Under the pieces are notes generated by a model. The model made no database searches. It was not told the DNA's origin and saw only the letters and a program-made list of their open reading frames with translations. From a virus: a stretch of DNA of 24,934 nt. The position numbers were made by a program, and so were the translations under genes. This document shows positions 267 to 23,077 of the stretch, one piece after another. Location: positions 1 through 24,934 of the IMG/VR virus record IMGVR_UViG_3300036827_000081. One strand, written 5' to 3'. Position 1 is the first letter of the stretch; every line of letters starts with the position of its first letter.

Positions 267-1711
267 TCGAGACGCTTGGTAGCTTGTCGGGTGGCTTTCT
301 GCCCCCGCCTCCATTCGCCCGCCGCACCGATGAACCCAGCCAGGCGCCCGGGTCGAGCCTCGAAAACCCGCGCACCTCCTGGGACCGCATCTTCGAAACC
401 CAGGAGGGCTACGCCGGCAAGAGCGTGAACGAGATCACGGCGCTGCAGCTCATGGCGGTGTGGCGGTGTGTGAACCTGATCGCCGGCGCCCTGGCCAAGT
501 GCCCGCTCAACGTTTACCGGCGCGTGCCCGATATTGGTAAGACCAAGGCCACCAACCACTATTTGTGGCCGCTGCTCCACCGCGAAGCCAACGACGTCGT
601 GAAGCTCTCTGCGTATCGCTTCCGGCGGCTGATGCAGACCTGGCTGCTGCTGTGGGGCAACGCCTATGCGCTCTTCGAGGAAAACGGGCGGGGCCAGATC
701 CAGCGCTTCTGGCCGCTGCGCCCCGACCGCATGCGGGTCACCGGCACCGCGGCCAGCCTGATCTACACCTACCAGCGGCCGGACGGCAGCAGCTACATCC
801 TGCCAAGCGCCTACATGCTGCACCTGCGCGGCCTGGAGACGGACGGCATCATGGGCCTCTCGCCGATCAAGGCGGCGCGGCAGTCGCTGGGCCTGGGCCT
901 GGCGGCCGAGGAATACGGCGCCCGCTATTTCGGCGCCGGCGGCAAGCCAGGCGGCTATCTGGAGGTGATGGGCAAGCTCACCCCCGTCTCGAAGCAAAAC
1001 ATCCGCGAGAGCTTCGAGGATATGCACAAGGGGCTGCACGGGGCGCACCGGGTCGGCATTTTCGAAGAGGGGATGAAGTACCACGAGGTGGGCGTCCCAC
1101 CCGAGGACATGCAGTTCCTGCAGACGCGCCAGTTCCAGGGGATCGATGTAGCGCGGCTGTTCGGCGTCCCGCCGCACAAGATCGCGGAGCTGGCCCGCGC
1201 TACGTTCTCGAACATCGAGCACCAGTCGATGGAGTTCCTCCAGGATTGTCTCGCCGATTGGATGACGAACTGGGAGCAGGAGCTCACCGTCAGTTGCCTG
1301 TCGGAATCCGAAAGCCAGACCATCTTCCTGGAGTTCAGCCGAGACTCGATCGCGCGCGGCGACAAGATTTCGCGGTACACCGCTTACAACATCGGGCGCA
1401 ACGGCGGCTGGCTCTCGCAGAACATGATTCTCGATGAAGAGAATCTGAACCGGATCGAGGGCGGGGATACGTTCCTCACGCCGCTCAATATGCAGGTGAC
1501 GAGCACCTCACCGGAGACCGATCCGAACGACGACCCCGACGACCCCGGCGCCGTTGAGGACGATCCGAACGAGGGCAACGAGCCCGAACCGAATCCCGCG
1601 ATCGCGCCGCCGGCGCCCAATCCCGCGGTCGATCCCGCCAAGGCCGCTGCTCTTAAGAAAGCGGCCCAGAAGAAGGCCCAAAAGAAACTCTCTGGAGGAA
1701 GCGATGCGTAA
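263..1711 (+). CDS. Phage portal protein (HK97 family)
   Basis: 482 residues, a normal length for HK97-type portals. The protein forms the ring at the capsid vertex through which DNA passes and to which connectors bind. Family features visible: the early NEITALQLMAVWRCVNLIAG helix (about residues 56-75), the LLLWGNAYALFE segment, the PLRPDRM strand, the GLSPIKAARQSLGLGLAAEEYGARYF stem region and the GVPPHKIAELARATFSNIEHQ region near residues 300-320. The last ~65 residues are low complexity and charge-segregated: an Asp/Glu/Pro/Asn-rich stretch followed by an Ala/Lys-rich end. The start ATG overlaps the terminase stop by four bases. A ribosome-site-like motif for the next gene lies within its last codons. 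Confidence 0.93.
   Translation: MIETLGSLSGGFLPPPPFARRTDEPSQAPGSSLENPRTSWDRIFETQEGYAGKSVNEITALQLMAVWRCVNLIAGALAKCPLNVYRRVPDIGKTKATNHYLWPLLHREANDVVKLSAYRFRRLMQTWLLLWGNAYALFEENGRGQIQRFWPLRPDRMRVTGTAASLIYTYQRPDGSSYILPSAYMLHLRGLETDGIMGLSPIKAARQSLGLGLAAEEYGARYFGAGGKPGGYLEVMGKLTPVSKQNIRESFEDMHKGLHGAHRVGIFEEGMKYHEVGVPPEDMQFLQTRQFQGIDVARLFGVPPHKIAELARATFSNIEHQSMEFLQDCLADWMTNWEQELTVSCLSESESQTIFLEFSRDSIARGDKISRYTAYNIGRNGGWLSQNMILDEENLNRIEGGDTFLTPLNMQVTSTSPETDPNDDPDDPGAVEDDPNEGNEPEPNPAIAPPAPNPAVDPAKAAALKKAAQKKAQKKLSGGSDA
1688..1703 (+). promoter_or_regulatory. CTCTCTGGAGG leader motif, copy A
   Basis: This is the first of four similar leaders (others near 7784, 9123 and 13255). It holds CTCTCTGGAG followed by GAAGCG. 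GGAG ends 6 bases before an out-of-frame ATG at 1704 and 16 bases before the protease ATG at 1714. It lies in the last codons of the portal gene. A role as a ribosome site is likely, but the long spacing to the real start is unusual. Confidence 0.5.
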
Positions 1712-1713
1712 GC

Positions 1714-2739
1714 ATGCCTGCAATCCCCTACAAACACTCCGCGACGACGGACGTCGCTTGGGACGCTGGAGCGAATGAGAAACGGCTGAAGGCCAACGAT
1801 AAGGCCGCCTATCGCGATATGTACGCGTGGGTGGATCCGAACGGCGACCCCGATACCAAGGGCGCCTATAAGTTCCCGCACCACATGGTGAGCGACGCCG
1901 GCGCGGTCGGCGCCGCCAACCTGCGGGCGTGCTCGGCGGGAATCGCCGCGCTCAACGGCGGGCGCGGCGGGGCGAAGATTCCCACCGGCGATCGCAAGGC
2001 GGTTTACGATGCGCTGGCTCACCACCTGAAAGACGCCGGCAAAGACGCGCCCGAGCTGAAGAGCGAGCGCGACTACCTGGCCTCGCTGGCCCTGGCCAAT
2101 GCCGAGCTCAGCGGGCGCGAGCTGCGCGGGACGCTCATGTGCGGAGAGCTGGAGCTGCGCGAAGGCGTGGATAGCCAGCCTCCCGTGCTCATTGGCCACG
2201 CGGCCGTCTTCAACCAGACCGCCGATCTCGGCTTCTACAAGGAACGGGTGGCGCCTGGCGCCTTCACCCGCGCGGTGAACGAAGACGACGTCCGCATGCT
2301 CTACAACCACAACGAGGACCACGTCCTTGGCCGGAAGCAGGGCAAGGCGAGCGACACGCTCGGGCTGCAGCAGGACGCGGTCGGATTGGCGTTCCGTTGT
2401 CCCATGCCCGACACCACCATCGCGACCGATGTTCTCAAAAGCATCCGGCGGGGCGACGTGAGCCAGTGTAGCTTCGGCTTCCAGCGGCGTGGCCACGTGA
2501 TCACGCAGGACGGAGACGGCAACATCACCCGCACGCTCACCGACGTGAAGCTGTTCGACGTTTCGCCGGTCACCTTCCCCGCATATACCGGCACCGATGT
2601 TTCGGTGCGCTCGGGCGCGGCGGTGCTGAGCGAGCTGCTAGAAGATTTCCGGCGCGGCCCGGAAGATCCGCACGAGCTGACCTGGGAGCAAGACCTGGAG
2701 ATGCGCGCGCGGCAGTTGGATCTTGCCCGCAACTGGTAA
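1714..2739 (+). CDS. HK97-family prohead protease with extra N-terminal domain
   Basis: 341 residues. The protease part (about residues 140-300) shows the GHAAVFN strand, GAF, the LYNHNEDHVLGR segment with the likely catalytic His199, DVSQCSFGF with the likely nucleophile Ser253, and the closing FDVSPVTFPAYTGT strand. It would cleave the capsid scaffold domain during head maturation. Residues 1-115 form a separate domain (DMYAWVDP, KFPHH, ACSAGIAALNGGRGG, VYDALAHHLKDAG) also found in other phage proteases and structural proteins; its job is unknown to me. The ATG at 1714 gives a start at the first conserved residues. An ATG at 1704 is better spaced from GGAG but opens a short unrelated frame. 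The gene lies between portal and capsid, as expected. Confidence 0.9.
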   Translation: MPAIPYKHSATTDVAWDAGANEKRLKANDKAAYRDMYAWVDPNGDPDTKGAYKFPHHMVSDAGAVGAANLRACSAGIAALNGGRGGAKIPTGDRKAVYDALAHHLKDAGKDAPELKSERDYLASLALANAELSGRELRGTLMCGELELREGVDSQPPVLIGHAAVFNQTADLGFYKERVAPGAFTRAVNEDDVRMLYNHNEDHVLGRKQGKASDTLGLQQDAVGLAFRCPMPDTTIATDVLKSIRRGDVSQCSFGFQRRGHVITQDGDGNITRTLTDVKLFDVSPVTFPAYTGTDVSVRSGAAVLSELLEDFRRGPEDPHELTWEQDLEMRARQLDLARNW

Positions 2740-2751
2740 GGAAGGAGCACT

Positions 2752-4158
2752 ATGAATCGAATCCTAGAACTGAAACAAAAACTCGGGGCCGCCGTCGACA
2801 AAGCTGCTGTAATCGTGACGAAGGCGCGCACCGAGAAGCGGACCATGACGGGCGAGGAGACGACCTCCTACGATCTGATCATGGCCGAGGTCAACGAAAC
2901 CCGCGAGACCATCAAGCGGGAAGAGAGCTTCGGCGAGCTGGAGACGGCGATCGCGGAGCGCCGCGGCGAGACGGCCGCCCACACCGGCGTCGACGTCGAC
3001 GAGCAGCGGGACTTCTTCCGGCGCTTCCTGGTGAGCGCCCGCAGCGGCAACGGCAAGGCCCCCGCGCGGCCCCTGGCCGACCACGACTGGAAGACTCTGA
3101 GCGAGAAGGAAGCCCGCCGCTTTTCGGCGTTCGCCAACTTCCTGCGGTTCGGGCCTGGCCAGCTGAGCTCCGAAGAGCGCACCGCGCTCGGGAGCAGCGC
3201 GCTCGAAGTCGTTCGCCGCGACTTCAACGCCGGCGGCGATATCGAGCGCCGCGCGGCGCAGTCCGACGTGACCGGCAACCTCGGCGCCTACACCGTGCCG
3301 CAGGGCTTCCTTGCGGAGCTGCAGATCGCCATGAAGTACTACGCCGGCATGCTCGACGTCGGCCCGCGCATCATCAACACCGATTCGGGGAACGATCTCC
3401 CCATGCCGACCACCGACGACACCGCCAACAAGGGGCGCCGCCTGACCGAGAACACCGTCATCACCAACACGGCGGTGCCTTTCGGCCAGAAGATTCTCAA
3501 GGCGTACAAGTACAGCTCGGACCTGATCCTGATGCCGCGCGAGCTGCTGCAGGATACCGGGATCGACCTCGAAGCCGAGCTGGTATCGCTGCTCGCGGTG
3601 CGCATCGGCCGCGCCTACAACCTGGACTTCACGTCCAACAGCGACGGCGCGGGCCCGAGCGGAATCCTTGTCGATGCGACGCTGGGCGCAACCAGCACCG
3701 CCGGCAAGAGCGGCCTCCCGCAGTACAACGACCTGGTGAACCTGAAGTACTCGGTGAACCGGGCCTATCGCATGGGCGCCAAGTGGATGATGAACGACGA
3801 CACGCTCGCCGACATTCTGAAGCTGGTCGACAATAACGGCCGCCCGCTCATTCTCGACTATCTGACCACCCTGCAAGAGGACGAGCCCGACAAGATCCTG
3901 GGGCAGCCGGTGGTCATCAACAACGATATGCCCGACCCGGGAACGAACGGCTCCCCGGCCGTCGGCAACCAGTGCGTGCTCTATGGCGCCTGGTCGAATT
4001 TCTGGGTCCGCATCGTGAAGGACTTCACGCTGCTGCGCCTCATCGAGCGGTACGCCGACTTCTTCCAGGTTGGCTATGTCGGCTTCAGCCGCGCGGACGC
4101 CCGCCTGGTGGACGCCGGCCAGCACCCGATCAAGTACCTCCAGTCGAATGTCAGCTAG
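2752..4158 (+). CDS. Major capsid protein, HK97 fold
   Basis: 468 residues with a good GGAAGGAG ribosome site just upstream. Residues 1 to about 120 are charged and helical, resembling the delta/scaffold domain that the prohead protease removes. The typical start of the capsid fold is visible at about residues 175-185 (GNLGAYTVPQGF), followed by DLPMPTTDDTAN, the KYSSDLILMPRELLQD segment, WMMNDDTLADILKL, the ILGQPVVINNDMP motif and a C-terminal VGYVGFSRADARLVD region. These are hallmark segments of the Phage_capsid family. The cleavage site cannot be read from sequence alone. It is followed by a long structured intergenic stretch, fitting separate control of this highly expressed gene. Confidence 0.93.
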   Translation: MNRILELKQKLGAAVDKAAVIVTKARTEKRTMTGEETTSYDLIMAEVNETRETIKREESFGELETAIAERRGETAAHTGVDVDEQRDFFRRFLVSARSGNGKAPARPLADHDWKTLSEKEARRFSAFANFLRFGPGQLSSEERTALGSSALEVVRRDFNAGGDIERRAAQSDVTGNLGAYTVPQGFLAELQIAMKYYAGMLDVGPRIINTDSGNDLPMPTTDDTANKGRRLTENTVITNTAVPFGQKILKAYKYSSDLILMPRELLQDTGIDLEAELVSLLAVRIGRAYNLDFTSNSDGAGPSGILVDATLGATSTAGKSGLPQYNDLVNLKYSVNRAYRMGAKWMMNDDTLADILKLVDNNGRPLILDYLTTLQEDEPDKILGQPVVINNDMPDPGTNGSPAVGNQCVLYGAWSNFWVRIVKDFTLLRLIERYADFFQVGYVGFSRADARLVDAGQHPIKYLQSNVS

Positions 4159-4339
4159 CCAGCCCAACCAGGCCGGCCAGCCAACTCGTAAGGAATCCTT
4201 ACCAGTTGACGACGAGCGGGCCGTCGACCAGGGGGAGCGCGAGCTACCCCTGGAGACGGCCGTCGTCGGCGCCGATCGGGAACGCGCGGTAACCCGCTCC
4301 AGGGGTTTGTTGAGTTGTACGAGAAAATCGTACAGCTGA
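4148..4339 (+). CDS. Possible 63-residue hypothetical protein overlapping capsid end
   Basis: An ATG at 4148 overlaps the last 11 bases of the capsid gene and opens a 63-codon frame. The product is hydrophilic and charged, rich in Asp, Glu, Arg and Gln (for example PVDDERAVDQGERELPLE), with no membrane segment or known domain. I see no clear ribosome site before it, and its end lies inside a strong RNA hairpin. The overlap and position are compatible with a small accessory or connector gene. The frame may equally be open by chance in GC-rich DNA. Confidence 0.3.
   Translation: MSASQPNQAGQPTRKESLPVDDERAVDQGERELPLETAVVGADRERAVTRSRGLLSCTRKSYS
4228..4306 (+). other. Competing inverted repeats after the capsid gene
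   Basis: CCAGGGG (4228-4234) can pair with CCCCTGG (4247-4253) in a 7-bp stem. The same second arm, as ACCCCTGGAG (4246-4255), is also a perfect 10-base reverse complement of CTCCAGGGGT (4297-4306). The two stems share an arm and cannot form together, an arrangement typical of RNA switches or attenuators. No ligand class is recognised. Confidence 0.4.
4313..4337 (+). terminator. Strong hairpin downstream of capsid gene
   Basis: A 10-base-pair stem, AGTTGTACGA with TCGTACAGCT (one G-U pair), closes a GAAAA loop. It sits 155 bases after the capsid stop. No run of T follows, so it is not a classic intrinsic terminator. It could cause pausing, stabilise the capsid mRNA end or serve as a processing site. 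The structure is clear; the function is inferred. Confidence 0.5.
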
Positions 4340-4370
4340 GGATGGAGTAAGCGGACCCGCTAGAGCGTCG

Positions 4371-4379
4371 TGTTATATT
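4371..4379 (+). promoter_or_regulatory. Possible extended -10 promoter element
   Basis: TGTTATATT matches an extended -10 element (TGn plus TATATT) in otherwise GC-rich DNA, 34 bases after the strong hairpin. No convincing -35 hexamer is present at the expected distance. If active it would start transcription near 4386 and drive the connector operon from 4487. The rest of the gap (4380-4476) is G-rich with no other feature I can support. Confidence 0.3.
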
Positions 4380-4486
4380 CCCTTTGAGGGTGGAAGCGGT
4401 GTCAACCAGAGAGGGCGCCGCGGATATCGTCGGGGGGCGGGGGGTCTGGTTCCCGGCCAGGCCCCTTCCCTTTTGTGAGGAGACCC

Positions 4487-5143
4487 ATGGGAACCCAGCA
4501 GATCAGTCGCGGCGACTTCTCGATCGGACTTCTGCAGGGTCCGGCCAGCGAACCGCTTACGCTCCAACAGGCCAAGGAGCACCTTCGGCTGCCCGTCGAC
4601 ATGACGGACTTCGATAACAAGCTGAACCTGTTCATTCCCGCCGCGCGCGCCTACCTGGAGAACGGCTGGGGCATCCGCTGCGTGACGCAGAAGGTCGAGG
4701 TGGCCTATCAAGCGTTCCCGGCAGAGGACCGCTTCCGGCTTCCCATCTGGCCCGTGCAATCGTGCGACTACTTCACGTTCGAGGACACCCTCGGCAACGT
4801 GAACCCGCTGGTGGTGGGCGCCACGGGCGACGCCGGCGTGCAGGTCCTGACGCGCCTGAACCGGAAGCCCTGCGAGCTGGTGCTTCCCTGGGCGCACGTC
4901 TGGCCTCCGACGGTGCTGACGACGGCCGACCCGATCCGGATCGGTTTGACCGTCGGCTATATGACCGCGGGCCAGTCGCCACTCACGCTCCCGATCGACG
5001 TGAACATTCTGAACGCGATGTGCCTGCTCATCTCCTGGTGGTGGGACAACGGCGCCGCGGCGACGCTCGGGTCGCTGATGAAATCGGACGTCTCCGCGAT
5101 CGGCGTCGACCAGATGATGGCCAGCGTGAAGCTGTACTACTGA
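4487..5143 (+). CDS. Head-tail connector (phage gp6/gp8-like adaptor)
   Basis: 218 residues. It shows the helical start typical of connector proteins that dock under the portal: EPLTLQQAKEHLRLP followed by DNKLNLFIPAARAYLENGWG, matching the 'SLAEAK.HLR...D..l..li.aAr.y.E' pattern of the phiE125 gp8/HK97 gp6 group. The middle is beta-rich (FRLPIWPVQSCDYFTFEDTLG), ending with helices (DVNILNAMCLLISWWWDNGAA). The ATG at 4487 has a GAGGAG ribosome site 4 bases upstream; a GTG at 4475 in the same frame would lie on top of that site and is less likely. It begins the connector operon, whose next gene starts one base after its stop. Confidence 0.85.
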   Translation: MGTQQISRGDFSIGLLQGPASEPLTLQQAKEHLRLPVDMTDFDNKLNLFIPAARAYLENGWGIRCVTQKVEVAYQAFPAEDRFRLPIWPVQSCDYFTFEDTLGNVNPLVVGATGDAGVQVLTRLNRKPCELVLPWAHVWPPTVLTTADPIRIGLTVGYMTAGQSPLTLPIDVNILNAMCLLISWWWDNGAAATLGSLMKSDVSAIGVDQMMASVKLYY

Positions 5144-5144
5144 G

Positions 5145-5507
5145 ATGCCGCGCTACTTTAAGAAGGGCGACGTCCGGTCGAATGCCGGCGGCTTCGATAA
5201 GCCCGCCGACTTCTACACCGTGGTGCAGACCCAGAGTTCGACGGGCGCCAACGAGCGCACCAAGACCTTCGCCTGGTCCGGCTTCGTCAACGTGGCGCCG
5301 TATCAGGGGATGGAGTTGCGCGATGCGCTGCGCGAGATCGGTGAAACCTGGTCGACCATCTCGATTCAGTACATGCCCTCGCGCCTCCCGGTCGAAGGGA
5401 TGTGGCTGAAGCTGAAGTGGACGGGCGACTGGTACGAGATCCGCGGGGTGAGCGGCGACGCCTCGGCCTATGGCAAGGTCGAGCTGACCTGCAGGAAGCT
5501 CCAATGA
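5145..5507 (+). CDS. Head closure / head-tail adaptor protein
   Basis: 120 residues, of the size and pattern of the SPP1 gp16-like head closure family: a short N-terminus, a QTQSSTGANERTKTFAWSGFVNVAPYQGMEL segment, a strand rich in alternating hydrophobic residues (WSTISIQYMPS) and a WYEIRGVSGD motif near the end. These proteins form a ring below the connector and stop DNA leaking from the filled head. Position directly after the gp6-like gene supports the call; ATG follows the upstream stop by one base. The C-terminal strand ends with TCRKLQ, and the last bases overlap the next small frame. Confidence 0.75.
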   Translation: MPRYFKKGDVRSNAGGFDKPADFYTVVQTQSSTGANERTKTFAWSGFVNVAPYQGMELRDALREIGETWSTISIQYMPSRLPVEGMWLKLKWTGDWYEIRGVSGDASAYGKVELTCRKLQ

Positions 5508-5662
5508 GACTGGTGGCCTGGATTTCGCTATTTATCTTTCCCACCAGCTGGGCGTTCCACGTAACCGGCAAGTGCTACTGCAGAGACCGTTCGAGCTGCC
5601 CCCGCTCAAAATACTGGCCAGCCGCGCGGCCTGATCTGGCAGCCAATCAGAGGTGGGAGTAA
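5504..5662 (+). CDS. Small hypothetical protein with signal-like N-terminus
   Basis: 52 residues. The ATG overlaps the preceding stop by four bases (ATGA), and AGGAAG lies 5 bases upstream, a normal ribosome site. Residues 3-18 form a strongly hydrophobic stretch after Arg2 (LVAWISLFIFPTSWAF), resembling a signal peptide or single membrane segment. Cysteines at 24, 26 and 32 (CYCRDRSSC) follow. The stop is TAA and the next gene's ribosome site overlaps its end. I do not recognise the family. A membrane protein between two connector genes is unexpected; it could be an accessory gene acting at the cell envelope, or an unexpressed frame. Confidence 0.45.
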   Translation: MRLVAWISLFIFPTSWAFHVTGKCYCRDRSSCPRSKYWPAARPDLAANQRWE

Positions 5663-5665
5663 AGC

Positions 5666-6055
5666 ATGGGATCGCTCAAGGGCTATAGCCTGGCGAAGGC
5701 CAACCTGCAGGCGCTCACCACGGCGCTGTCCTCGGACGACGCGCTGGCGGTCTTCCAGGGGGCGGCCGAGATGGTGGCCGAGCGCGCGCGCGAATTGGCG
5801 CCCGTCGACGAGTTGCACCACGACGACAAGGAACCGCACCTGCGCGATACGATCGAGGTCCGAGCGTACATGAAGGGCCGCGCGCCGGCGGCGATCGTGG
5901 CGGTGCGCAGCGGCCACGCGTTCATCATCGAGTACGGTGGCCACCGCCAGGCGGCGCAGCCCTACATCCGGCCCGCCATCGATGAGTTGAAGGACGCGAT
6001 CGCCAGCCAGGTTGCGGACGGCCTGAAAGCTGTGGTCGAAGGAGCGGTCAAATGA
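5666..6055 (+). CDS. HK97 gp10-like tail completion/neck protein
   Basis: 129 residues, matching the HK97-gp10 family in length and pattern: an N-terminal helical part with a VAERARELAPVDE segment (family pattern 'A...aP...G.Lr..i'), then HLRDTIEVRAYMKGR and AAIVAVRSGHAFIIEYGGHRQAAQPYIRPAID, the characteristic 'v.....ya..vEfGt....paqPflrpA' ending. These proteins lie at the head-tail junction. GGTGGGAG lies 7-14 bases before the ATG. The stop overlaps the next gene's start by four bases. Confidence 0.85.
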   Translation: MGSLKGYSLAKANLQALTTALSSDDALAVFQGAAEMVAERARELAPVDELHHDDKEPHLRDTIEVRAYMKGRAPAAIVAVRSGHAFIIEYGGHRQAAQPYIRPAIDELKDAIASQVADGLKAVVEGAVK

Positions 6056-6450
6056 GACGCAACGATGTTCAACTCATGCTCGCGCCAGAGCTCGCCATCA
6101 GAACCGCAATGCTGGCGGTCGAATCCATGCCGGCCGATCCCGCTTTGACGGACGCGGTGGTCCTGCTGGAGCAGGCGCAGGCGCGGGTCGCCGATTTTAT
6201 CGATGCGAAGGTCAAGGAGCTATTTGGCCCGACCGCCGACGTGACGGTTTGCAAGTACGCCGGCTACAAGGAAATGGTCCGGAAGGCGGCCGGCTGCGCG
6301 GAGGTCGGCTACTCGAAAGAGGGCCTGCGTGGTAAGATCGACCTGCTCGAATATCTGGTCTCCATCGCGCAGCAGAACGAACCCGTTTGGCGCGCGTTCT
6401 TCACGGAGATGCGGGTCAACCTCATGCGCAAGTTCGACGAGGCCAAGTGA
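6052..6450 (+). CDS. Hypothetical protein in connector operon
   Basis: 132 residues, not recognised. It is mostly helical, with a probable long helix (VVLLEQAQARVADFIDAKVKELFG), a central VCKYAGYKEMVRKAAGCAEV segment with two cysteines, and a charged C-terminal helix ending LMRKFDEAK. It overlaps the preceding and the following gene by four bases each, so it is tightly coupled to connector synthesis and probably translated at a similar level. A minor head-tail or tail-assembly role is inferred only from place; no signal peptide or membrane segment is present. Confidence 0.7.
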   Translation: MRRNDVQLMLAPELAIRTAMLAVESMPADPALTDAVVLLEQAQARVADFIDAKVKELFGPTADVTVCKYAGYKEMVRKAAGCAEVGYSKEGLRGKIDLLEYLVSIAQQNEPVWRAFFTEMRVNLMRKFDEAK

Positions 6451-6848
6451 CGCTCGAACAGCAGCTCTACGCGATCCTGACGACGTCGCCGCTGCCGATC
6501 CCAGCTATCGGCCTCCGCTGGTTCCCTGTGACGGCCGAGCAGAATGTTGCTTACCCGTATGCGGTCTACAGCGAGGTGAGCGGCGTGCTGCTCGCGCCCA
6601 CCCAAGACCAGCCGGCGCTCGCCGCCGGCGACACACTGACGCACCGCTACCAGTTCAGTCTCTTCGGCCAGGACTACGATCAGCTGGACGCGGTGCGGGT
6701 CGCGCTGGTCGCGCTGCTGCAGGCGGTCCCGCGCGCTCAGCCTGGCATTCAGTCGATTCTGCTCCTGAACCTTCTGTGGGGGCCGTTCGACGATGCGGAC
6801 CGCCTCTTTCACCGCATCGTCGAGTTCACGGTGATCGAGAATTGCTGA
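6447..6848 (+). CDS. Tail terminator-like protein (DUF3168/gp17-like)
   Basis: 133 residues from a GTG that overlaps the preceding stop by four bases (GTGA). It begins LEQQLYAILTTSPLP, then has PVTAEQNVAYPYAVYSEVSG, LTHRYQFSLFGQDYDQLDAVRVALVALLQAVP and a closing FHRIVEFTVIENC strand. This order (N-terminal helix, 'P...yPyivy..vs', 'r.qid.ws.....a..l...v...l') is that of tail terminator or tail completion proteins that cap the tail tube. Its place between the gp10-like gene and the tail tube gene agrees. An upstream in-frame ATG exists inside the previous gene, but the GTG gives the conventional overlap. Confidence 0.7.
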   Translation: MTLEQQLYAILTTSPLPIPAIGLRWFPVTAEQNVAYPYAVYSEVSGVLLAPTQDQPALAAGDTLTHRYQFSLFGQDYDQLDAVRVALVALLQAVPRAQPGIQSILLLNLLWGPFDDADRLFHRIVEFTVIENC

Positions 6849-6912
6849 TGCTCGCCAATCTTCTGCTCGCGATCGCCGGGTCGGGCGACTGATTGGGAAT
6901 ACCATAGTTCTC

Positions 6913-7641
6913 ATGCTTCCGATGATCTCGTGCGTCATGCCCACGGCGGACCGGCACCAGTTCCTGCCGCTTGCCTATCGCTGTTTCCAACAGCAGACCT
7001 ACCCCAACCGCGAGCTGGTGATTCTCGACAATGGCGTCGACCGCTGCGGCCGGATCGTGGCGGGCTGGGCCGATCCCCGGGTGCGCTACTACCAGTGCAG
7101 CTCCGAACCGAGCATGGGCGCGCTGCGCAACATGGTGGTCGACCTGGCCAACGGACCGCTGATCGCGAACTGGGACGACGACGACTACAGCGCCCCGGAA
7201 CGCCTGGCCTTCCAGGAGCTGCTGCTCAAGGGCCACGAGGTGTCGGGCTTTAACGAGATGTACTTCGTCGACCAGCGGCGGGCCAGCCCGGTGGTGTGGG
7301 CCTATCACGCCGGCGACGATCACTACGCGGTGGGGACCAGTCTGATGTTCGCCAAGGACCTGTGGCGCGCGCGCGGCTTCGATGAGGTGAAGGGCGACCG
7401 CTTCCCGATCAAGGAGCGGGGCGAGCCCGTCGACGTCGGCGAAGACAACGCCTTTATCGACGGCCGCGATGTGGCGACCGCCAGCACGCTCAAGACGCTG
7501 ATCATGGTGGCGCGCATCCACCCGGGCGGCACCGCGCGCCAGATCAACGCTGGTCCGCAGTGGATCGTGCAGGAATCCCCGGCGCTGATCGCCAAGGTCA
7601 AGGCATGTTTGAGTTCACCTGTATCTGCGGCGCGGCGGTGA
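6913..7641 (+). CDS. Family 2 glycosyltransferase
   Basis: 242 residues with a GT-A fold signature: MISCVMPTADRHQF at the N-terminus, QQTYPNRELVILDNG (residues 27-41), GALRN (69-73), the metal-binding NWDDDDY (86-92) and GEDNAFID with the likely catalytic acid (Glu177/Asp178), then a His in the RIHPGG segment. It would transfer a sugar from a nucleotide sugar to an unknown acceptor. No membrane segment is seen, so it is probably cytoplasmic. It sits between tail terminator and tail tube genes. Phage-encoded glycosyltransferases that modify virion proteins are known in mycobacteriophages; host surface modification is an alternative. No clear ribosome site precedes ATG 6913 (ATG 6922 is possible). 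Confidence 0.85.
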   Translation: MLPMISCVMPTADRHQFLPLAYRCFQQQTYPNRELVILDNGVDRCGRIVAGWADPRVRYYQCSSEPSMGALRNMVVDLANGPLIANWDDDDYSAPERLAFQELLLKGHEVSGFNEMYFVDQRRASPVVWAYHAGDDHYAVGTSLMFAKDLWRARGFDEVKGDRFPIKERGEPVDVGEDNAFIDGRDVATASTLKTLIMVARIHPGGTARQINAGPQWIVQESPALIAKVKACLSSPVSAARR

Positions 7642-7763
7642 GGACCGCGGTGGTGGTCGGCCGCTGCACCACCTGCGGGCGCCTGTTCGAGTTGCAGTGG
7701 CATCCCAAGGAGGGCGAGACCGCGCCTCCGGCCGCCGCATCGCCCGTGTTACGCTACGAATGA
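7605..7763 (+). CDS. Small zinc-ribbon-like protein
   Basis: 52 residues starting at an ATG inside the end of the glycosyltransferase gene (37-base overlap), with AAGG upstream. It carries a CxC (Cys6, Cys8) and a CxxC (Cys21, Cys24) in a short beta-rich context (FEFTCICGAAVRT, GRCTTCGRLFELQW), the arrangement of a one-knuckle-per-side zinc ribbon. The C-terminal third is Pro/Ala-rich. Such ribbons bind nucleic acid or protein; no specific role can be assigned. Overlap suggests it is translated together with the glycosyltransferase. The cysteine pattern makes it more than a chance frame. Confidence 0.6.
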   Translation: MFEFTCICGAAVRTAVVVGRCTTCGRLFELQWHPKEGETAPPAAASPVLRYE

Positions 7764-7765
7764 TC

Positions 7766-7783
7766 CGGTCGGCTCCCCGACCG
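7766..7783 (+). other. Hairpin before tail tube gene leader
   Basis: CGGTCGG and CCGACCG form a perfect 7-bp stem around a CTCC loop. It lies directly after the zinc-ribbon stop and directly before the CTCTCTGGAGAA leader of the tail tube gene. It has only TT after it, so termination is doubtful; a 5' stabilising or processing stem for the abundant tube mRNA is possible. Confidence 0.45.
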
Positions 7784-7810
7784 TTCGCCTCTCTGGAGAA
7801 ACGGACGTGC
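7784..7810 (+). promoter_or_regulatory. CTCTCTGGAGAA leader motif, copy B
   Basis: CGCCTCTCTGGAGAAACGG followed by ACGTGC. Nearly identical to copy C before the tape measure gene (one indel and one mismatch over about 24 bases). GGAG ends 8 bases before an out-of-frame GTG (7807) and 19 bases before the tube protein ATG (7818). It contains the short dyad TCTC-TG-GAGA. Confidence 0.6.
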
Positions 7811-7817
7811 TGCAAGT

Positions 7818-8294
7818 ATGGCTGTCAAACAGAGTGCGATTACTACTGCACTGTGGATCGGGGATGGCGGATCGCCAGAAACCTTTTTCATGGTGCCCAG
7901 CGTGGGCGACGTCGCCGGCCCGAAGAAGAGCGTGACCACGATCGACGTCACCACTCAGGACTCGCCTGAAGGGTACGACGAGTTCATTTACTCCCTTAAA
8001 AGCGGCGGGACGGTGGCCTTTCCGCTCGAGTTCGACCCGAATGCGATCGAGCACAACGGCACGGCGACGGTCGCCGGCGTCAATGCCGGCGGTCTCGATT
8101 ATCTGCTCGAAAACCGAGTCAAGCGCAATATGCGCGTGGCGCTGCCGACCAGCCCCGCGATGCGCTTCGGCTTTCTGGGACTGGTTACTGGATTGGACGG
8201 CGACTTCAAGGTAAAGGGGTCCGTCAAGGCGTCCGTCATGATCAAGATCTCCGGGCCGCCGACCCTCGAAGCTGGCGTCGGCGGCCCGTCGTAA
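7818..8294 (+). CDS. Major tail (tube) protein
   Basis: 158 residues, beta-rich, in the position and style of siphovirus tail tube proteins: a short N-terminal strand region (ITTALWIGDGG), FFMVPSVGDVAGPKKSVTTIDVTTQDSPEGYDEFIYSLKSGGTVAFPLEFDP (family pattern 'i.ei.si.gp..s...idvT..ds..g..efi.gl.d.G.vs'), and a C-terminal FKVKGSVKASVMIKISGPPTL strand pair. It stacks in rings to make the tail tube around the tape measure. Its own leader motif and a hairpin on each side suggest expression is set apart from the neighbours, as expected for an abundant subunit. No earlier in-frame start exists after the upstream stop. Confidence 0.85.
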   Translation: MAVKQSAITTALWIGDGGSPETFFMVPSVGDVAGPKKSVTTIDVTTQDSPEGYDEFIYSLKSGGTVAFPLEFDPNAIEHNGTATVAGVNAGGLDYLLENRVKRNMRVALPTSPAMRFGFLGLVTGLDGDFKVKGSVKASVMIKISGPPTLEAGVGGPS

Positions 8295-8312
8295 GCTAGG
8301 AAGTAACACGCA

Positions 8313-8360
8313 GTCGAGCGGAGGCGGGTTCTTAATCGCGTTCTGGCCCGTCTCCGCTTG
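8313..8360 (+). terminator. Long GC-rich stem-loop after tail tube gene
   Basis: CGAGCGGAGGCGGG (8313-8326) pairs with CCCGTCTCCGCTTG (8347-8360): 14 pairs with two G-U, around a 20-base loop. It lies between the tube gene stop and the chaperone start. Only a weak T-rich tail (TGCTTTGG) follows. Partial termination or mRNA 3'-end protection would give more tube protein than chaperone. Confidence 0.5.
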
Positions 8361-8394
8361 TGCTTTGGCACCGGCCTGGGATAGTCTGGTGCTC

Positions 8395-8775
8395 ATGCCC
8401 GACAAACGCCTCATCCCTCCTGGCCCCACTCCTCCTGTCGCGATCGACCTACTCGACGGCAAACCGCGCTTCCTGCGGTACAGCATCTCCACCCTGACCA
8501 GCCTGAAGGCCAAGATGGGCCGCAGCCTATTCGGGCGGGGCGGCGCGCTGCAGAGCGTCGACGAGGAAGTGCTCCCGCTGCTCATCCTGGCGGGCCTGCG
8601 CAACGAGGACATGACGCCGGCCGAGGACGTCACGGTCGCGCAGATCCAGGATCTGCCCGCTTCCTACTTCCCCTATCTGCTGAACGTCTTCGCGCTGGCG
8701 TTCAACGGATCGCTGCCCGAGCAGCAAAGCCCAAACCCGCTGACGGCGAGCTCGAACCTGGGACCGGCGAACTAG
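8395..8775 (+). CDS. Tail assembly chaperone, zero-frame product (gpG-like)
   Basis: 126 residues from ATG 8395 (TTG 8365 and GTG 8389 are in-frame alternatives; no start has a strong ribosome site). The N-terminal part binds beta-rich tail proteins in known chaperones; here LRYSISTLTSLKAKMGRSLF, DEEVLPLLILAGLRNEDMTPAEDVTVAQIQDLP and FPYLLNVFALAFNGSLPE resemble the 'gene transfer agent gp10-like' group of chaperones. It lies between tail tube and tape measure genes, the conserved place for this pair. A perfect slippery heptamer at 8730-8736 near its end allows a minority of ribosomes to make the longer fusion. Confidence 0.8.
   Translation: MPDKRLIPPGPTPPVAIDLLDGKPRFLRYSISTLTSLKAKMGRSLFGRGGALQSVDEEVLPLLILAGLRNEDMTPAEDVTVAQIQDLPASYFPYLLNVFALAFNGSLPEQQSPNPLTASSNLGPAN
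8730..8736 (+). other. Programmed -1 frameshift slippery site CCCAAAC
   Basis: The heptamer C CCA AAC has the X XXY YYZ form and sits in the correct phase of the upstream gene (Pro-Asn codons). A -1 slip moves reading from the frame that ends at 8775 into the open frame that ends at 9116. This is the arrangement of lambda G/GT and most siphovirus chaperones. No downstream pseudoknot was established by eye. Confidence 0.8.
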
Positions 8776-9116
8776 ACCTCGACCGCCTATGGACCACCGC
8801 CCTCGTCGATCTGCGCCTCTCGCCGGAGGTGTTCTGGGAGCTGACGCTGCGCGAGCTCGATATGCTAATGCGCCGGCGCGTCGCGGTGGTCGAGCGCGAA
8901 GCCGACTTCCCCGCGAAGCTCGTCTGCTGGATGCTCGTCAACATCCATCGCAACCGCGAAGAGCACCCGCTGCCGCTGGCCTTCGAAGAGATCTTCCCCG
9001 CCGGCGAGCCAGAAGCCAAAACTGAAACGGTCGAAGAGGCCCAGGCGCGAATCCTGGAGCGGTACCGGGGGTTGACGAAGCTCTTCGGTGGCACCGACGA
9101 TACCGGGTTAAGCTAG
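8736..9116 (+). CDS. Tail chaperone frameshifted part (T of the GT fusion)
   Basis: The frame has no good independent start near its beginning and is open upstream through the slippery site. After the slip, 126 residues follow, giving a fusion of about 240 residues (114 from ATG 8395 to the Asn codon). Visible here is LRLSPEVFWELTLRELDMLMRRR, the typical motif of the second tail chaperone ('gl.p..FW.lTl.E...l'), then FPAKLVCWMLVNIHRNREEHPLPLAFEEIFP and an acidic end. In known systems the fused part recruits the tape measure protein, encoded next. A separate start at an internal ATG (8829 would cut the motif) is unlikely. Confidence 0.8.
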   Translation, partial: PADGELEPGTGELDLDRLWTTALVDLRLSPEVFWELTLRELDMLMRRRVAVVEREADFPAKLVCWMLVNIHRNREEHPLPLAFEEIFPAGEPEAKTETVEEAQARILERYRGLTKLFGGTDDTGLS

Positions 9117-9122
9117 GGCGAA

Positions 9123-9146
9123 CGCCTCTCTGGAGAACGGAAGTGC
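9123..9146 (+). promoter_or_regulatory. CTCTCTGGAGAA leader motif, copy C
   Basis: CGCCTCTCTGGAGAACGGAA followed by GTGC. Very close to copy B. GGAG ends 7 bases before an out-of-frame GTG (9143) and 17 bases before the tape measure GTG (9153). Confidence 0.6.
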
Positions 9147-9152
9147 GGCCCC

Positions 9153-12100
9153 GTGTCTCAACTGATCGGCGATCTCCTCCTTCGCATCGGACCGGATGAC
9201 GAAGAGTACGCAGCTGTAGATTCCTTCCTTCAGTCCACCACCCAGGGACTCGAGGGCCTGCAGGCCGCCGCCGAAGCAACCGACATCGGCCCCGTGAACC
9301 AGGCGGTGCAAGCGCTCGGGTCTGCGGTGCAGGACCTCTCGCCGCAGCTCGACCTGTTCAGCCAGGCGGCGGATACCGCCAGCGAGAGCATGCAGCAGCT
9401 TTCGCTGTTCGACCCCAACTCGCTCGAAGCCACCGACGAGCTTTTTGGATCCCTTTCGCAAACCGCCACCGAAGCGGGGGCCGCGGTCGGCTCCAGCGTA
9501 GAGCAGCTGTCCAGTATTTCCGACGCCGCAGCCCTGGCCGCGCTCGGGCTGGGCGAGGTCTCCGATAGCGAGGAGAAGGTCAAGGGGAGCGCAGAGGAAG
9601 CCGAGGGCGGCCTGGCGGGAATGGCCGAGCAGTTCACCGTCATTGCCGAATCGCTCGCTGTGACCGAGGGGCTGGCCGAGTTCGGCAAAGAAGCTCTGGG
9701 CGTCTATGAGCAGGTCCAGAATCTGAGCGGCGCCCTGGTGTTCCTGGGAGAGAGCGAGGTGCAGGCCTCGGAAAGCATCGAGAAGCTGAAGGCTGCGGCC
9801 GTCTCGCTCAGCGAACCGATTGGGAGCGTCCTGAGCCTGGCGCAGCAGATCCCGCCGGCGCTCGGCGGGATCGACGCCGCGGTCCCGATTTTGACCGCTG
9901 CCGCGGACGCGGCGCACGTGCTCGGCACCAGCTTCGAGGGCACGGTCGAGATGCTGGAGCGAATGGCCGTGTCGGGGGTGGCTTCCTCCCGCACGCTCGC
10001 GACGCTAAAGATCACGCTCACCGATCTGGGCACGGCGATGGGCGTGTCCGCAAGCGATGCGGCTGCGTTCTTCAAGGACCTGGATGCAACCGACAGGGTA
10101 GAGGTGCTCATCTCTGCGCTTGGCGAGTATTCGGGTGCCTCGGAAGCGCTCGCCGGGAACCTGACCGAGCAGTGGACTAATTTCAAGAACCAGTTCGATT
10201 CGGTGCTTGATGCGGTCGGCTCGGCCTTGGCGCCCGTCGTCTCTCAACTGATTTCTGCTGGGTCCGACATCCTGTCAGTGGTTAAGCGCATCGCCGATCA
10301 GTTCGCGTTGATCCCGCAGCCCGTTCAGGATGCGGTCGTCGCCTTCGGCCTGGCCGCCGCAGGGGCGGTTCCCCTCACCGGTGCGCTCGCGGCTGGGGCA
10401 TTCTCGATCAATGCGCTGGGGCAGGTTCTGCCAGGGATCAGTTCCCTGCTGCAGACGATGGGCTTCAGCTCCGAATCCGCGGCCAAGGCCTCGGTCAATC
10501 TTGCGAATGAGGCGACGGATGCCACCTCCGCTTTGACGACCTTTGAAAGGGCGGGCAAGGATGCGGTCGTCGCCACCCAGGGGCTGGCCTCGGCCGGAAC
10601 TCTGGCGGCCAATTCTGGCGGCGGCATGGCGTCCACGCTCGGCGGACTGGCGGCCGTTGCGCTCCCTGCTGTGATCGCCGGCGTGCTCGCCACCGAGAGC
10701 CAGATTACCTCGCTCGACGAGAAGTACAAGGCGTTCTCCGACGACCTGATCAATAACGCCCTGGCCAACGGCAAGACGAAAGAGGACCTGGAGGAGTTGG
10801 GCGTCTCCGCGGGGAACGTGCAGGCGGCGATCGATTCGCTGAGCCTTTCCTTCCTGAACGCGAAGCCCAACGTGGACGGGTTCGACACCAGCCTGGTGGA
10901 GGTCGACACGCACCTGGTCGCGGTCGGAACTGGCGCGGCCACGGTGAACGCGGCGACCCAGAAGGTGCTGGACGGCTTTCTGCTCGCCACCCAGCGGGTG
11001 AGCGATCTCAAGGCCGGCCTCGATCTGGCCACGGCCGCCTTCGCTGCGCATGCAATCACGCAGCAGCAGCTCGCCGCGATCCAGAACGCCTACAATTCGG
11101 CGGTCGCTGCGATGAACGGCGCGCTCGGGAAAACGCCGGACGGAATCGCCGCCGTCGACGCCGCCGCCGCGAAGCTCACCACCACGCTCGTCAATGCGCA
11201 GGCTACATTGACCGCGATCCAGGCGCTGTGGGACAAGGGGCTGGCCACCGACGCACAGCTGGGCGAGGCGCTGGGGAATCTGGCCAAGGCGCAGTCTGCC
11301 TACAACGATGTCGTGGACAAATCCTTCGCCTCGAATCAGACCCAGGTCGACGCGCTCAAGGACCTCACAGACCAGCTGGCCTCCGGCAAGATTTCGGCCG
11401 ACGAATACACCGCCGCGATCAACGCGAGCGTGGGCCCGCAGGAGGAGTTCGTCCAATCGACCGGTGACATCGAAACCGGGGTGGTGACGGTCAACGGGAA
11501 GCTGCAGCAGTTCATTCCTGTGATGACCGATGTGCAGACCTCGGCCGAAGATTCCGGCGCCGTGATCCACAATCTCACCGGAGAGTTCGAAGCGGCGCAG
11601 ATCGAAACCGGCAGCGTAACGGATGCCATGGAAGTGCTGGTCACGAAAATGACCGACGTCCAGCAAGCCTCTGACAACGCCACCAAGGCGCTGATCTATT
11701 CGGACGGGGTCTACCAGACCACGGCCGGCTTGCTAAAGAATCTGGCAACGGCCTGGGACGCGGTGGCCACCGCCGCCGGCAACGCGGCGACCGCCACGGA
11801 TGCAGCGACATCAGCGACGAAGGCTGCCGGCGATGGTGTCCCTGGATCGGGCGGCAGTGTCCCTGGATCGGGCGGCAGTGTTCCTGGATCGGGCGGCCCA
11901 ATGGATACCCCCTTCGGGGGCGGTGGCGGTACCGGAGGGGGCGGTGGAAGAGGCGGCGGGACCTCGCTCACAGGGTGGATGCTCGACGCCATTCAGGGAT
12001 CGTTGGTGGCCGGCGTCAGCCAGATTACCAACAGCGCCGAGCTGATCGCCGCCGGCCTGGTGCAAGTTGGTAACGCCGCCTTCGAGACGCTGTCGCAGTA

Positions 12101-13250
12101 CAACGATTCGATCAAGGCCACCGGCTTCCAGATGAACGCCCTGGGCCAGCTGGTCTACCAGGGCGCCGCCGCGACCTCAGCCAACACGACCGCCGTCTCT
12201 GCCAATACCAGCGCTCTCACCACCGCCAAGGACGCGACAGCCGCGGCGAGCCAGGCGCTGCAGCTGCTCGGCCTGAGCGCCACCGAGTCCAACCAATACC
12301 TGGCGGCGCTCGAAGGGCTGGGCCTGACCGCGCAAGGCGCTGCGCAGGACCTGGCTTACATGATGCAGCAGGCGCAGGATACCGGCGTGAGCCTGGGCAG
12401 TCTGGTGAGCGCGGCCACCGCGACCACGCCCACCATGATTGCGCTGGGGGCGTCCACCACCCAACTGGGCCAGGCGAGCGATGCGGCGGTCAAGGCCCTC
12501 GCGGACTCCGGCACCGGATTCACTCAAGCGGTAACACAGGCCAGCAGCGCCGTAACCGAATCCACCGCGGCCACGGTCGAATCGCTGGGGCAGGCCCGGT
12601 CCTCCGTCGACCGGCTAACCAACAGCTCGGCCGACGCGTCGGGCGCGCTCGCTACGGTCACCACGGCCGCCGACACGACCAGCTCGGCGATCGTGGCCAT
12701 GGGGAGCACCGTCACGCGGACGGCCGCCGTCATCCAGGCCGCCTTCATTGCGATTCCGGCCGCCGCCCAGGAAATCTCGCAGGTGGGAGTCATCACCGGC
12801 CAGGTGGTCAACCAGCTGGCGGCGATCGCCCAGCCCGCGGGCGGCCCGGTCACGGGAACGCCCGAGCTCGGCCAGCAGCTGGGCCTCGGCACCGCGCCGG
12901 CGCCGTCCTTCGCTGTGCAGCCCGCGGCAGGCGCCCCGGTGGGTCCGCCTCCCGACGGCGCGAGCTGGGCCAGCTACAACGCGAGCCAGTTAAGCTGGGC
13001 CGCGATCCAGCAGCAGCTCCAACAGACCACCGATTCCCTGGCGCGCGCCACGGGCCAGCTCAGCGTCCCCTCCTCGACCGGGCTGCTCGCGCCTTCCGGC
13101 ATCGGCACTTCGCCTGGCTCTTTTACCGCCGCTCCACAGCCGAGTGTTAGTATTGTCGTGACTGGTAACAACATCAACGGGCAGCAAGCGGCCGACGACC
13201 TCGCGAATACGATCGTCACCCGCCTGCGGCTGGCAGGTTTGAAGTTTTAA
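9153..13250 (+). CDS. Tail tape measure protein
   Basis: 1365 residues, the largest gene of the window, directly after the chaperone pair. It starts with GTG; the MSQLIGDLLLRIG start follows the chaperone stop in the same frame, and no earlier start exists. It is Ala/Gln/Ser/Thr-rich and largely helical, with typical segments AAAFFKDLDATDRVEVLISALGEY, NLTEQWTNFKNQFDSVLDAVGSALAPVV, then a hydrophobic stretch near residues 390-430 (AVVAFGLAAAGAVPLTGALAAGAF). Around residue 896 there are three VPGSGGS repeats followed by a Gly-rich linker. It sets tail length and may exit into the host during DNA entry. No lysozyme or peptidase domain is visible. Confidence 0.93.
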   Translation: MSQLIGDLLLRIGPDDEEYAAVDSFLQSTTQGLEGLQAAAEATDIGPVNQAVQALGSAVQDLSPQLDLFSQAADTASESMQQLSLFDPNSLEATDELFGSLSQTATEAGAAVGSSVEQLSSISDAAALAALGLGEVSDSEEKVKGSAEEAEGGLAGMAEQFTVIAESLAVTEGLAEFGKEALGVYEQVQNLSGALVFLGESEVQASESIEKLKAAAVSLSEPIGSVLSLAQQIPPALGGIDAAVPILTAAADAAHVLGTSFEGTVEMLERMAVSGVASSRTLATLKITLTDLGTAMGVSASDAAAFFKDLDATDRVEVLISALGEYSGASEALAGNLTEQWTNFKNQFDSVLDAVGSALAPVVSQLISAGSDILSVVKRIADQFALIPQPVQDAVVAFGLAAAGAVPLTGALAAGAFSINALGQVLPGISSLLQTMGFSSESAAKASVNLANEATDATSALTTFERAGKDAVVATQGLASAGTLAANSGGGMASTLGGLAAVALPAVIAGVLATESQITSLDEKYKAFSDDLINNALANGKTKEDLEELGVSAGNVQAAIDSLSLSFLNAKPNVDGFDTSLVEVDTHLVAVGTGAATVNAATQKVLDGFLLATQRVSDLKAGLDLATAAFAAHAITQQQLAAIQNAYNSAVAAMNGALGKTPDGIAAVDAAAAKLTTTLVNAQATLTAIQALWDKGLATDAQLGEALGNLAKAQSAYNDVVDKSFASNQTQVDALKDLTDQLASGKISADEYTAAINASVGPQEEFVQSTGDIETGVVTVNGKLQQFIPVMTDVQTSAEDSGAVIHNLTGEFEAAQIETGSVTDAMEVLVTKMTDVQQASDNATKALIYSDGVYQTTAGLLKNLATAWDAVATAAGNAATATDAATSATKAAGDGVPGSGGSVPGSGGSVPGSGGPMDTPFGGGGGTGGGGGRGGGTSLTGWMLDAIQGSLVAGVSQITNSAELIAAGLVQVGNAAFETLSQYNDSIKATGFQMNALGQLVYQGAAATSANTTAVSANTSALTTAKDATAAASQALQLLGLSATESNQYLAALEGLGLTAQGAAQDLAYMMQQAQDTGVSLGSLVSAATATTPTMIALGASTTQLGQASDAAVKALADSGTGFTQAVTQASSAVTESTAATVESLGQARSSVDRLTNSSADASGALATVTTAADTTSSAIVAMGSTVTRTAAVIQAAFIAIPAAAQEISQVGVITGQVVNQLAAIAQPAGGPVTGTPELGQQLGLGTAPAPSFAVQPAAGAPVGPPPDGASWASYNASQLSWAAIQQQLQQTTDSLARATGQLSVPSSTGLLAPSGIGTSPGSFTAAPQPSVSIVVTGNNINGQQAADDLANTIVTRLRLAGLKF
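11838..11900 (+). repeat. Tandem 21-base repeat, three copies (VPGSGGS)
   Basis: Three near-identical 21-base units encode VPGSGGS twice and VPGSGGP once (residues 896-916 of the tape measure protein), followed by a glycine-rich stretch. This is a flexible hinge between helical parts. Copies are close enough at DNA level to vary in number by slippage. Confidence 0.85.
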
Positions 13251-13254
13251 GCAA

Positions 13255-13281
13255 CGCTCTCTCTGGAGAAACGAGACATGG
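13255..13281 (+). promoter_or_regulatory. CTCTCTGGAGAA leader motif, copy D
   Basis: CGCTCTCTCTGGAGAAACG followed by AGACATGG, just after the tape measure stop. GGAG ends 9 bases before an out-of-frame ATG (13278) and 16 bases before the ATG at 13285 of the likely gene. Confidence 0.6.
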
Positions 13282-13284
13282 CTG

Positions 13285-13494
13285 ATGGACGGAACGACCC
13301 CCGCCTCGGAAATGAAAACCGAGGAACTACTCCCGGCCCACGTCGCGCTCGACCGGCAGATCGCCGAGATTCGCGCGCTCCAGGCCGAGCTTCACGAAGA
13401 GCTGACCACCCGCGAAGAGGCGGCACGCCGGGCCGCCGTCGCTAACCGCCCCGCCAACTTCCCGCCCGCCCAGAACATCGGAGGCGTGAAGTAA
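13285..13494 (+). CDS. Small coiled-coil protein after tape measure
   Basis: 69 residues. Residues 12-50 are amphipathic and heptad-like (EELLPAHVALDRQIAEIRALQAELHEELTTREEAARR), fitting a coiled coil, then a Pro/Asn-rich tail. I do not recognise the family. The ATG at 13278 fits the ribosome site better but opens an Arg-rich frame without protein character, so 13285 is chosen. It is followed by the next gene after one base. A tail-tip assembly factor is a guess from place only. Confidence 0.6.
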   Translation: MDGTTPASEMKTEELLPAHVALDRQIAEIRALQAELHEELTTREEAARRAAVANRPANFPPAQNIGGVK

Positions 13495-13495
13495 G

Positions 13496-14035
13496 ATGGC
13501 CAACCAGATGTATGGCCTCGGCCGGCAGGCCTTTCTCGCCGGCTCGATCGCGATTCTGTCGGATAACATCAAAGTCTGCCTGGTCAGCACCGCGTCCTAC
13601 ACTCTCTCGATCAACACCGACCAGTTCCTGTCGGACATCCCCGGTGGCGCGATCGTGGCGACCAGCGGCAACCTGGCGTCCAAGTCGGATACGCTCGGCG
13701 TGTTCAACGCCGCGACCGTGACCTTCACGGCCGTGACCGGAGCCGCGGCTGCGCTGGTGGTGCTGTACAAGGACACCGGCACTGGCTCGACCTCTCCGCT
13801 CATCGGCGCGATCGACACCGGCACCGGCCTTCCGGTCACGCCCAACGGCGGCGACATCACCCTGACCTGGGACACCGGCAGCAATAAGATCTTCAAGCTG
13901 CGGGAGGCCCTGAAAGAGCTGGGCCGCAAGGCTGGCGACTTCTTCCGGCCTCCGGACTCCGCGCTGTGGCGCCCCGCGCCTGCGCAGCGCATCATCGTTG
14001 CTGCGCCGCTCCTGCTGCCCGGGTTCGCGCGGTAA
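13496..14035 (+). CDS. Phage virion structural protein with C-terminal extension
   Basis: 179 residues. Residues 1-135 match a common phage structural family by pattern: YGLGRQAFLAGSI, DNIKVCLVSTASYTL, FLSDIPGGAIVATSGNL, GVFNAATVTFTAVTG, VLYKDTGTGSTSPLIGAIDTGTGLPVTPNGGDITLTWD and NKIFKL. The exact place in the virion is not known to me; tail or decoration roles are possible. The family normally ends at about IFKL; here about 44 extra residues follow, first a charged helix (REALKELGRKAGDFF), then a Pro/Ala-rich hydrophobic end. GGAGGCG lies about 10 bases before the ATG. Stop to next start is 18 bases. Confidence 0.75.
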   Translation: MANQMYGLGRQAFLAGSIAILSDNIKVCLVSTASYTLSINTDQFLSDIPGGAIVATSGNLASKSDTLGVFNAATVTFTAVTGAAAALVVLYKDTGTGSTSPLIGAIDTGTGLPVTPNGGDITLTWDTGSNKIFKLREALKELGRKAGDFFRPPDSALWRPAPAQRIIVAAPLLLPGFAR

Positions 14036-19955: not shown

Positions 19956-19977
19956 ACTCTCTGAAAGGCAAATCAAA

Positions 19978-22967: not shown

Positions 22968-23077
22968 AGCAGGACATCGCTCGATGCTTCGTGCTGCTCG
23001 GTTTGTTCGTAGTCGCCGGCGCGCTGTGGTTCGGCCTGGCGGTCGGGATCGCGAAGCTGTTTGGAGGTGCGAAATGA
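22964..23077 (+). CDS. Single-membrane-segment microprotein
   Basis: 37 residues from GTG 22964, overlapping neighbours by four bases on each side (GTGA, ATGA). GGAGG lies about 8 bases upstream. Residues 9-30 form one membrane helix (CFVLLGLFVVAGALWFGLAVGI) after a short charged start; the end is Lys/Gly. Function unknown; holin-like, superinfection-exclusion or small regulator roles are all possible. Confidence 0.6.
   Translation: MKQDIARCFVLLGLFVVAGALWFGLAVGIAKLFGGAK

Follow-up and report, generated by a model that had tools for sequence, protein, structure and literature searches.

A repeated leader at gene starts of a phage and its possible role in translation initiation

A short repeat, CTCTCTGGAG, which includes the Shine-Dalgarno core GGAG, was found ahead of several gene starts in a phage, and the chances are somewhat better than even that it is a translation-initiation leader, specific to the lineage and copied from one gene start to others. 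The window (the whole stretch of DNA analysed) comprises the 24,934 bases of an IMG/VR virus record, for which an initial annotation had reported a repeated leader at four gene starts. These four are real: a longer form, CTCTCTGGAGAA, is exact at 7789, 9126 and 13259, and a form with one mismatch, CTCTCTGGAGGA, stands at 1688. In each of the four a start codon follows the leader in the wrong reading frame (hereafter the decoy), and the start of the gene itself lies further downstream. Two further copies outside the window lack a decoy and are placed as ordinary ribosome-binding sites.

A second record, IMGVR_UViG_3300036806_000183 (38,041 bases), was found to be the same phage as the window, the two being 100% identical over 20,227 bases and 99.96% identical over 4,871 bases. 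This second record overlaps itself by 164 bases with two mismatches, which makes the map of the phage a circle of 37,877 bp. Searches with PHROGs and Pfam identified portal, prohead protease, major capsid, major tail protein, tape measure and ParB-like genes. No tRNA genes were found in the phage, and a genome scan returned two distant relatives (38% and 32% identical), which does not settle the host. The list of 51 gene starts used below was hand-edited from 56 automatic codon-usage calls: eight starts were shifted to other codons, small genes at 23074 and 23232 were added, and seven weak calls (30, 6848, 25304, 25818, 26362, 29779 and 33073) were dropped. A family 2 glycosyltransferase gene (window 6913-7641) lies within the head-tail gene block, and a second glycosyltransferase-like gene and a methyltransferase-like gene, both named by eye, lie outside the window. 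The protein encoded at 13496-14035 corresponds to phrog_644 (function unknown), and its relatives in annotated phages are mostly from mycobacteriophages and Pseudomonas phages (400 records).

Over the whole 37,877-bp phage, exact CTCTCTGGAG occurs five times on the plus strand and never on the minus strand, whereas 500 shuffles that preserved each gene's codons averaged 0.048 copies and never gave more than 1. The 12-mer CTCTCTGGAGAA, searched with 2 mismatches in the window alone, was only mildly unusual, 5 matches being reached in 4 of 100 shuffles. Other words recur equally often; of those listed, most are rich in G+C or derive from the repeat gene at 15057, which encodes tandem protein repeats of about 60 nt (IASGEAWG-like, window 15171-15853) and matches a PHROGs minor tail family. 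Four of the five exact copies lie at most 35 nt upstream of one of the 51 listed starts, zones that make up 4.7% of the genome (P about 2e-5). The fifth, copy E, was scored in this test as not start-proximal, the listed start being 33727, and all five precede gene starts once the methyltransferase start is re-assigned to TTG 33751, as described below. GGAG is present in every exact copy, and in the phage's other genes it usually stands 3-13 nt from the start (24 of the 29 genes whose match is 5 nt or longer; the exceptions, copy A and four others, all have longer spacings). It thus looks like a working Shine-Dalgarno core here, and by the same measure the spacings of 16-19 nt at copies A to D are unusual for this phage.

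Leader A (CTCTCTGGAGGAAGC, 1688-1702, plus strand) also codes for LSGGS at the end of the portal gene. Its decoy is an ATG opening a frame of 24 codons (1704-1778, plus strand), out of frame with the prohead protease gene (Peptidase_S78; 1714-2739, plus strand), and the portal stop codon TAA ends 2 nt before the protease ATG. Leader unit B (7786-7813, plus strand; decoy GTG at 7807-7809) precedes the real frame of the major tail (tube) protein gene (phrog_158; 7818-8294, plus strand), the start of which aligns with that of its homologue in the related stretch L041. Leader unit C (9123-9149, plus strand; decoy GTG at 9143-9145) precedes the tape measure gene, whose real frame runs from a GTG (9153-13250, plus strand) and which was identified through homologues, weak PHROG matches and a Pfam TMP_3 match below the curated cut-off. 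Leader unit D (13255-13284, plus strand; decoy ATG at 13278-13280) precedes a small gene after the tape measure (13285-13494, plus strand), which has a homologue in L128 and for which "coiled coil" is the name given in the initial annotation. From A to D, GGAG is separated from the decoy by 6, 8, 7 and 9 nt and from the gene start by 16, 19, 17 and 16 nt, in agreement with the ranges first reported (6-9 and 16-19 nt), and the offsets from decoy to gene are 10, 11, 10 and 7.

The alignment of B with C spans 28 columns with one indel and two substitutions, close to the one indel and one base over about 24 that had been noted originally. The best alignment scores among 1275 pairs of gene-start windows were 21 (B-C), 19 (B-D) and 15 (C-D); about 4000 random window pairs reached at most 16, with a 99.9% quantile of 13, so the C-D score would not stand out alone. 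In B-C and B-D the alignment covers a unit of 27-30 nt that opens with CGC and takes in CTCTCTGGAG, the decoy RTG and bases beyond it, and B, C and D are copies of one unit that includes the out-of-frame start codon. Because the unit spans the decoy RTG, the decoy is inherited along with the copy, and the effective number of independent decoy cases is about two.

In another reading the repeats would be relics or boundary sequences, short gene-border copies generated or retained by recombination that have no regulatory role of their own and whose misframed starts are debris. This reading is a possible but doubtful one. C and D occupy nearly the whole of their intergenic gaps (36 and 34 nt) and flank the tape measure gene as direct repeats, the unit carries a start codon, relatives lack the leader, and boundary sequences have been proposed for phage mosaicism (PMC3029335). 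It is opposed by the fact that a relative with 57% protease and 64% portal identity (L049, see below) has kept leader A, and by the five exact copies, which share one orientation and each carry GGAG before a gene start.

An RTG lies 6-9 nt after GGAG in 4 of 4 window copies versus 14 of 180 other GGAG sites. This enrichment would suit a function in start-codon competition, in which the well-placed misframed start captures ribosomes and lowers the output of the protease, tape measure and small genes; a misframed ATG is also present in L049, 10 nt after GGAG, and E. coli is known to show start-codon ambiguity (PMC9841429). The tail tube, however, is expected in quantity, the decoy frame is not conserved, B, C and D represent one inherited unit and copies E and F are free of decoys, and we consider such a function improbable. 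The original statement that every copy has a decoy thus holds for the four leaders in the window and not for E and F. A more elaborate form of this idea is very improbable: one duplicated ribosome-binding unit, its built-in start kept in the wrong frame, would jointly set the output of several virion genes through competition inside a single ribosome footprint.

Comparison with homologous sequences confirmed the downstream frame as the real gene frame at all four genes. The tail tube (61% identical) and tape measure proteins of L041 begin at the window gene starts or no more than a few residues away, and the L128 homologue of the small gene (44.7% over residues 13-59) has a similar start. The protease and portal of L049 are 57% and 64% identical to those of the window, respectively, and the two proteases have a common N-terminus (MPAIPYKHSATT/LPAIPYKHSATT). 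At A, the 11 codons after the start compared between the window and L049 include 7 identical, 4 synonymous and no non-synonymous codons in the gene frame, versus 4 non-synonymous codons in the other frames. At B, comparison of the window with L041 gave 10 identical, 10 synonymous and 3 non-synonymous codons in the gene frame, versus 9/1/13 and 10/1/12 in the other two. By the same frame-wise codon comparison the decoy reading frame is not conserved.

These comparisons also bear on programmed frameshifting from the decoy start into the gene frame at the CCCC runs that closely follow the decoy in A, C and D, where the decoy frame reads CCC-C (by eye). The offsets of 10, 11, 10 and 7 demand different shifts, which excludes one common frameshift; B has no CCCC run near its decoy, the L049 counterpart is TCCC, and in A the codons ahead of the slip site are conserved in the gene frame. 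Frameshifting from the decoy is scarcely credible and was rejected on the unequal offsets and the gene-frame conservation.

Conservation of the leader itself was followed in L049 (which covers copy A only, and not B to D) and in other relatives. L049 retains CTCTCTGGAGGAAGC at the portal-protease border, where the same 15 nt also code for the portal LSGGS, and its ATG 10 nt after GGAG is out of frame and overlaps the portal stop as ATGA. At L049:1170-1200 the portal TGA stop is followed directly by the protease frame opening with TTG, in the same frame. The leader is missing at the corresponding genes in L041 (tail tube and tape measure), and in L050/L051 and L128 (for L128/L051, the protease, tail tube, tape measure and small gene). 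A Shine-Dalgarno sequence at ordinary spacing takes its place at the L050/L051 protease, the L041 tail tube and the L128 small gene. The absence of the leader from homologues in L041 and L128/L051, and the double duty of the conserved nucleotides of A as portal LSGGS codons, count against reading the repeat as a leader.

Exact scans of a viral collection with three 15-mers returned 33, 31 and 38 stretches, among which the 15-mer stood at the start of a gene homologous to those discussed here in this phage and L049 only (L049 and L196 are the same contig). A plausible start for an ORF of 50 or more codons was nearby in 9 of 33, 4 of 31 and 6 of 38 stretches, this phage and L049 included; the remaining matches are mostly inside genes, and the sequence alone is therefore not diagnostic. 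CTCTCTGGAG occurred 4 times in 117 fetched stretches (1,420,496 bases, some overlapping), once at a homologous start (L049); 117 of the 118 selected stretches were counted, L129 being omitted as the same phage. Leader A gave no DNA match beyond chance in the phage collection, and a close search with the tape measure found no relatives beyond the phage itself.

The fifth exact copy (E) lies outside the window at contig position 29031, or 33738 counted from the window's first base, in the first codons of the methyltransferase ORF as originally called. The methyltransferase homologue in L128 is 44% identical; its GTG start aligns with a TTG 3 nt after copy E, and the two proteins are of equal length up to the motif GGALD. 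On this homology TTG 33751 is the likely start of the methyltransferase gene. Copy F, a 9-of-10 form (ATCTCTGGAGG), lies at normal spacing ahead of an ATG at 31305. In both E and F the element is 3-5 nt from the start codon and no out-of-frame decoy is present; their placement as ordinary ribosome-binding sites argues that the element acts in translation.

The initial annotation had further proposed a shared control site whose TCTC-TG-GAGA dyad might be recognised by a protein or an RNA. The first part is upheld, as a start-associated element, by the number of copies, their strand bias, their position and the persistence of leader A in L049; the dyad did not survive, as copy A and L049 both read TCTC-TG-GAGG, which breaks the 4-bp dyad, and no common fold was found among the five leaders folded (A to D and L049). 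Of these five, leader B alone folds better than its shuffles (z -2.9), and a strong upstream hairpin is found only at B, too few copies being available to judge an ESAS-like share. The hairpin GGTCGG-CTCC-CCGACC (window 7765-7784) lies between the upstream gene and leader B and has no T-run. An operator, a phage-specific promoter or an sRNA or protein target, such as the dyad, is highly improbable as an account of the repeat. PMC7302621 describes repeats 14-22 bp upstream of starts in Cluster EG Microbacterium phages, but those of Hyperion lie upstream of a separate Shine-Dalgarno sequence and the present repeat contains its own; the leaders also matched no Rfam family, and no sigma-70-like promoter was found in 1600-13400. 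Two patterns picked out by eye were dropped: a sigma-54-like spacing (GG to GC), which differs among copies, and a CsrA-like site (ACGGACGU in B, ACGGAAGU in C), which is lacking in D and A.

A diverged leader had also been claimed ahead of the ParB-like gene. The weakly similar CTCTCTGAAAGG (19957-19968, plus strand) resembles the leader only marginally above chance, and the gene has an ordinary start, with AAGG 9 nt before the ATG and no decoy. CTCTCTG words stand before listed starts in 6 of 11 cases, two of them beyond the four leaders.

The favoured reading, a translation-initiation leader, would work as follows. The leader would consist of a pyrimidine tract (CTCTCT) joined to the Shine-Dalgarno core GGAG. 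Pyrimidine tracts can be bound by ribosomal protein S1, and CTCTCT would help initiation, for example in this way. At E and F, to judge from position, the element would simply be a ribosome-binding site. At A to D the same GGAG would recruit the ribosome, with the unit's own start codon 6-9 nt downstream and out of frame and the gene start 16-19 nt downstream; the gene would be read from the downstream start, in the frame shown by homology. At B, C and D the copied 27-30-nt unit brought its own start codon along, and the misframed codon is most likely a weak competitor or a relic of copying. At copy A the portal gene ends right where the protease starts, and translational coupling probably contributes there as well. 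A spacing of 16-19 nt between GGAG and the start is poor for Shine-Dalgarno-driven initiation, and for this reason the leader may not serve the genes at A to D as proposed.

Actinobacteriophages have been known to carry start-associated repeats since 2011 (PMC3203893). According to that report, the SAS of Cluster K mycobacteriophages has a 13-bp consensus (GGGATAGGAGCCC), is found in the non-structural half of the genome as 11-19 copies, nearly always in one orientation and 3-7 bp from the start, has inverted repeats (ESAS) at about half of its copies, and combines a Shine-Dalgarno core with conserved bases unable to pair with 16S rRNA, its function being unknown; a 2025 survey covering SAS in 188 Cluster K phages still treats the functional role as open (PMC12699233). 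The present repeat is likewise short, asymmetric, in one orientation (five plus, no minus) and at gene starts, and contains the core GGAG. It differs in sequence (CTCTCTGGAG, five copies, only GGAG being shared), in spacing (16-19 nt at A to D, and 3-5 nt only at E and F), in its association mainly with structural genes and in the misframed start codon at four copies. In Microbacterium phages, according to PMC7302621, the Cluster EF SAS has the consensus GGGAAAGGACCCC in ten copies with ESAS, and resembles the present repeat in being unusually conserved at the ribosome-binding position. The same source gives Cluster EG (Hyperion) inverted repeats, GATCAACC..GGTTGATC, which like those here are two short inverted motifs separated by 2 bp; unlike them, the Hyperion repeat, on checking, does not include the Shine-Dalgarno sequence. 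CTCTCTGGAG was absent from the 21,770 bases examined, and the Quhwah motif pattern as published had no match in the 50,000-base stretch examined. Proposed boundary sequences (PMC3029335) are similarly short repeats at gene borders, but no module exchange is shown for the repeat of this phage. A literature search, largely without subscription journals, found no report of the CTCTCTGGAG motif. Judged by these comparisons, the leader resembles the Cluster K and Cluster EF SAS in kind, not in sequence or spacing, and is not a member of either. It provides a small, countable instance of a start-associated repeat in a phage found by another route, and its built-in contrast between copies with and without a misframed start would make it directly testable whether such repeats act on translation.
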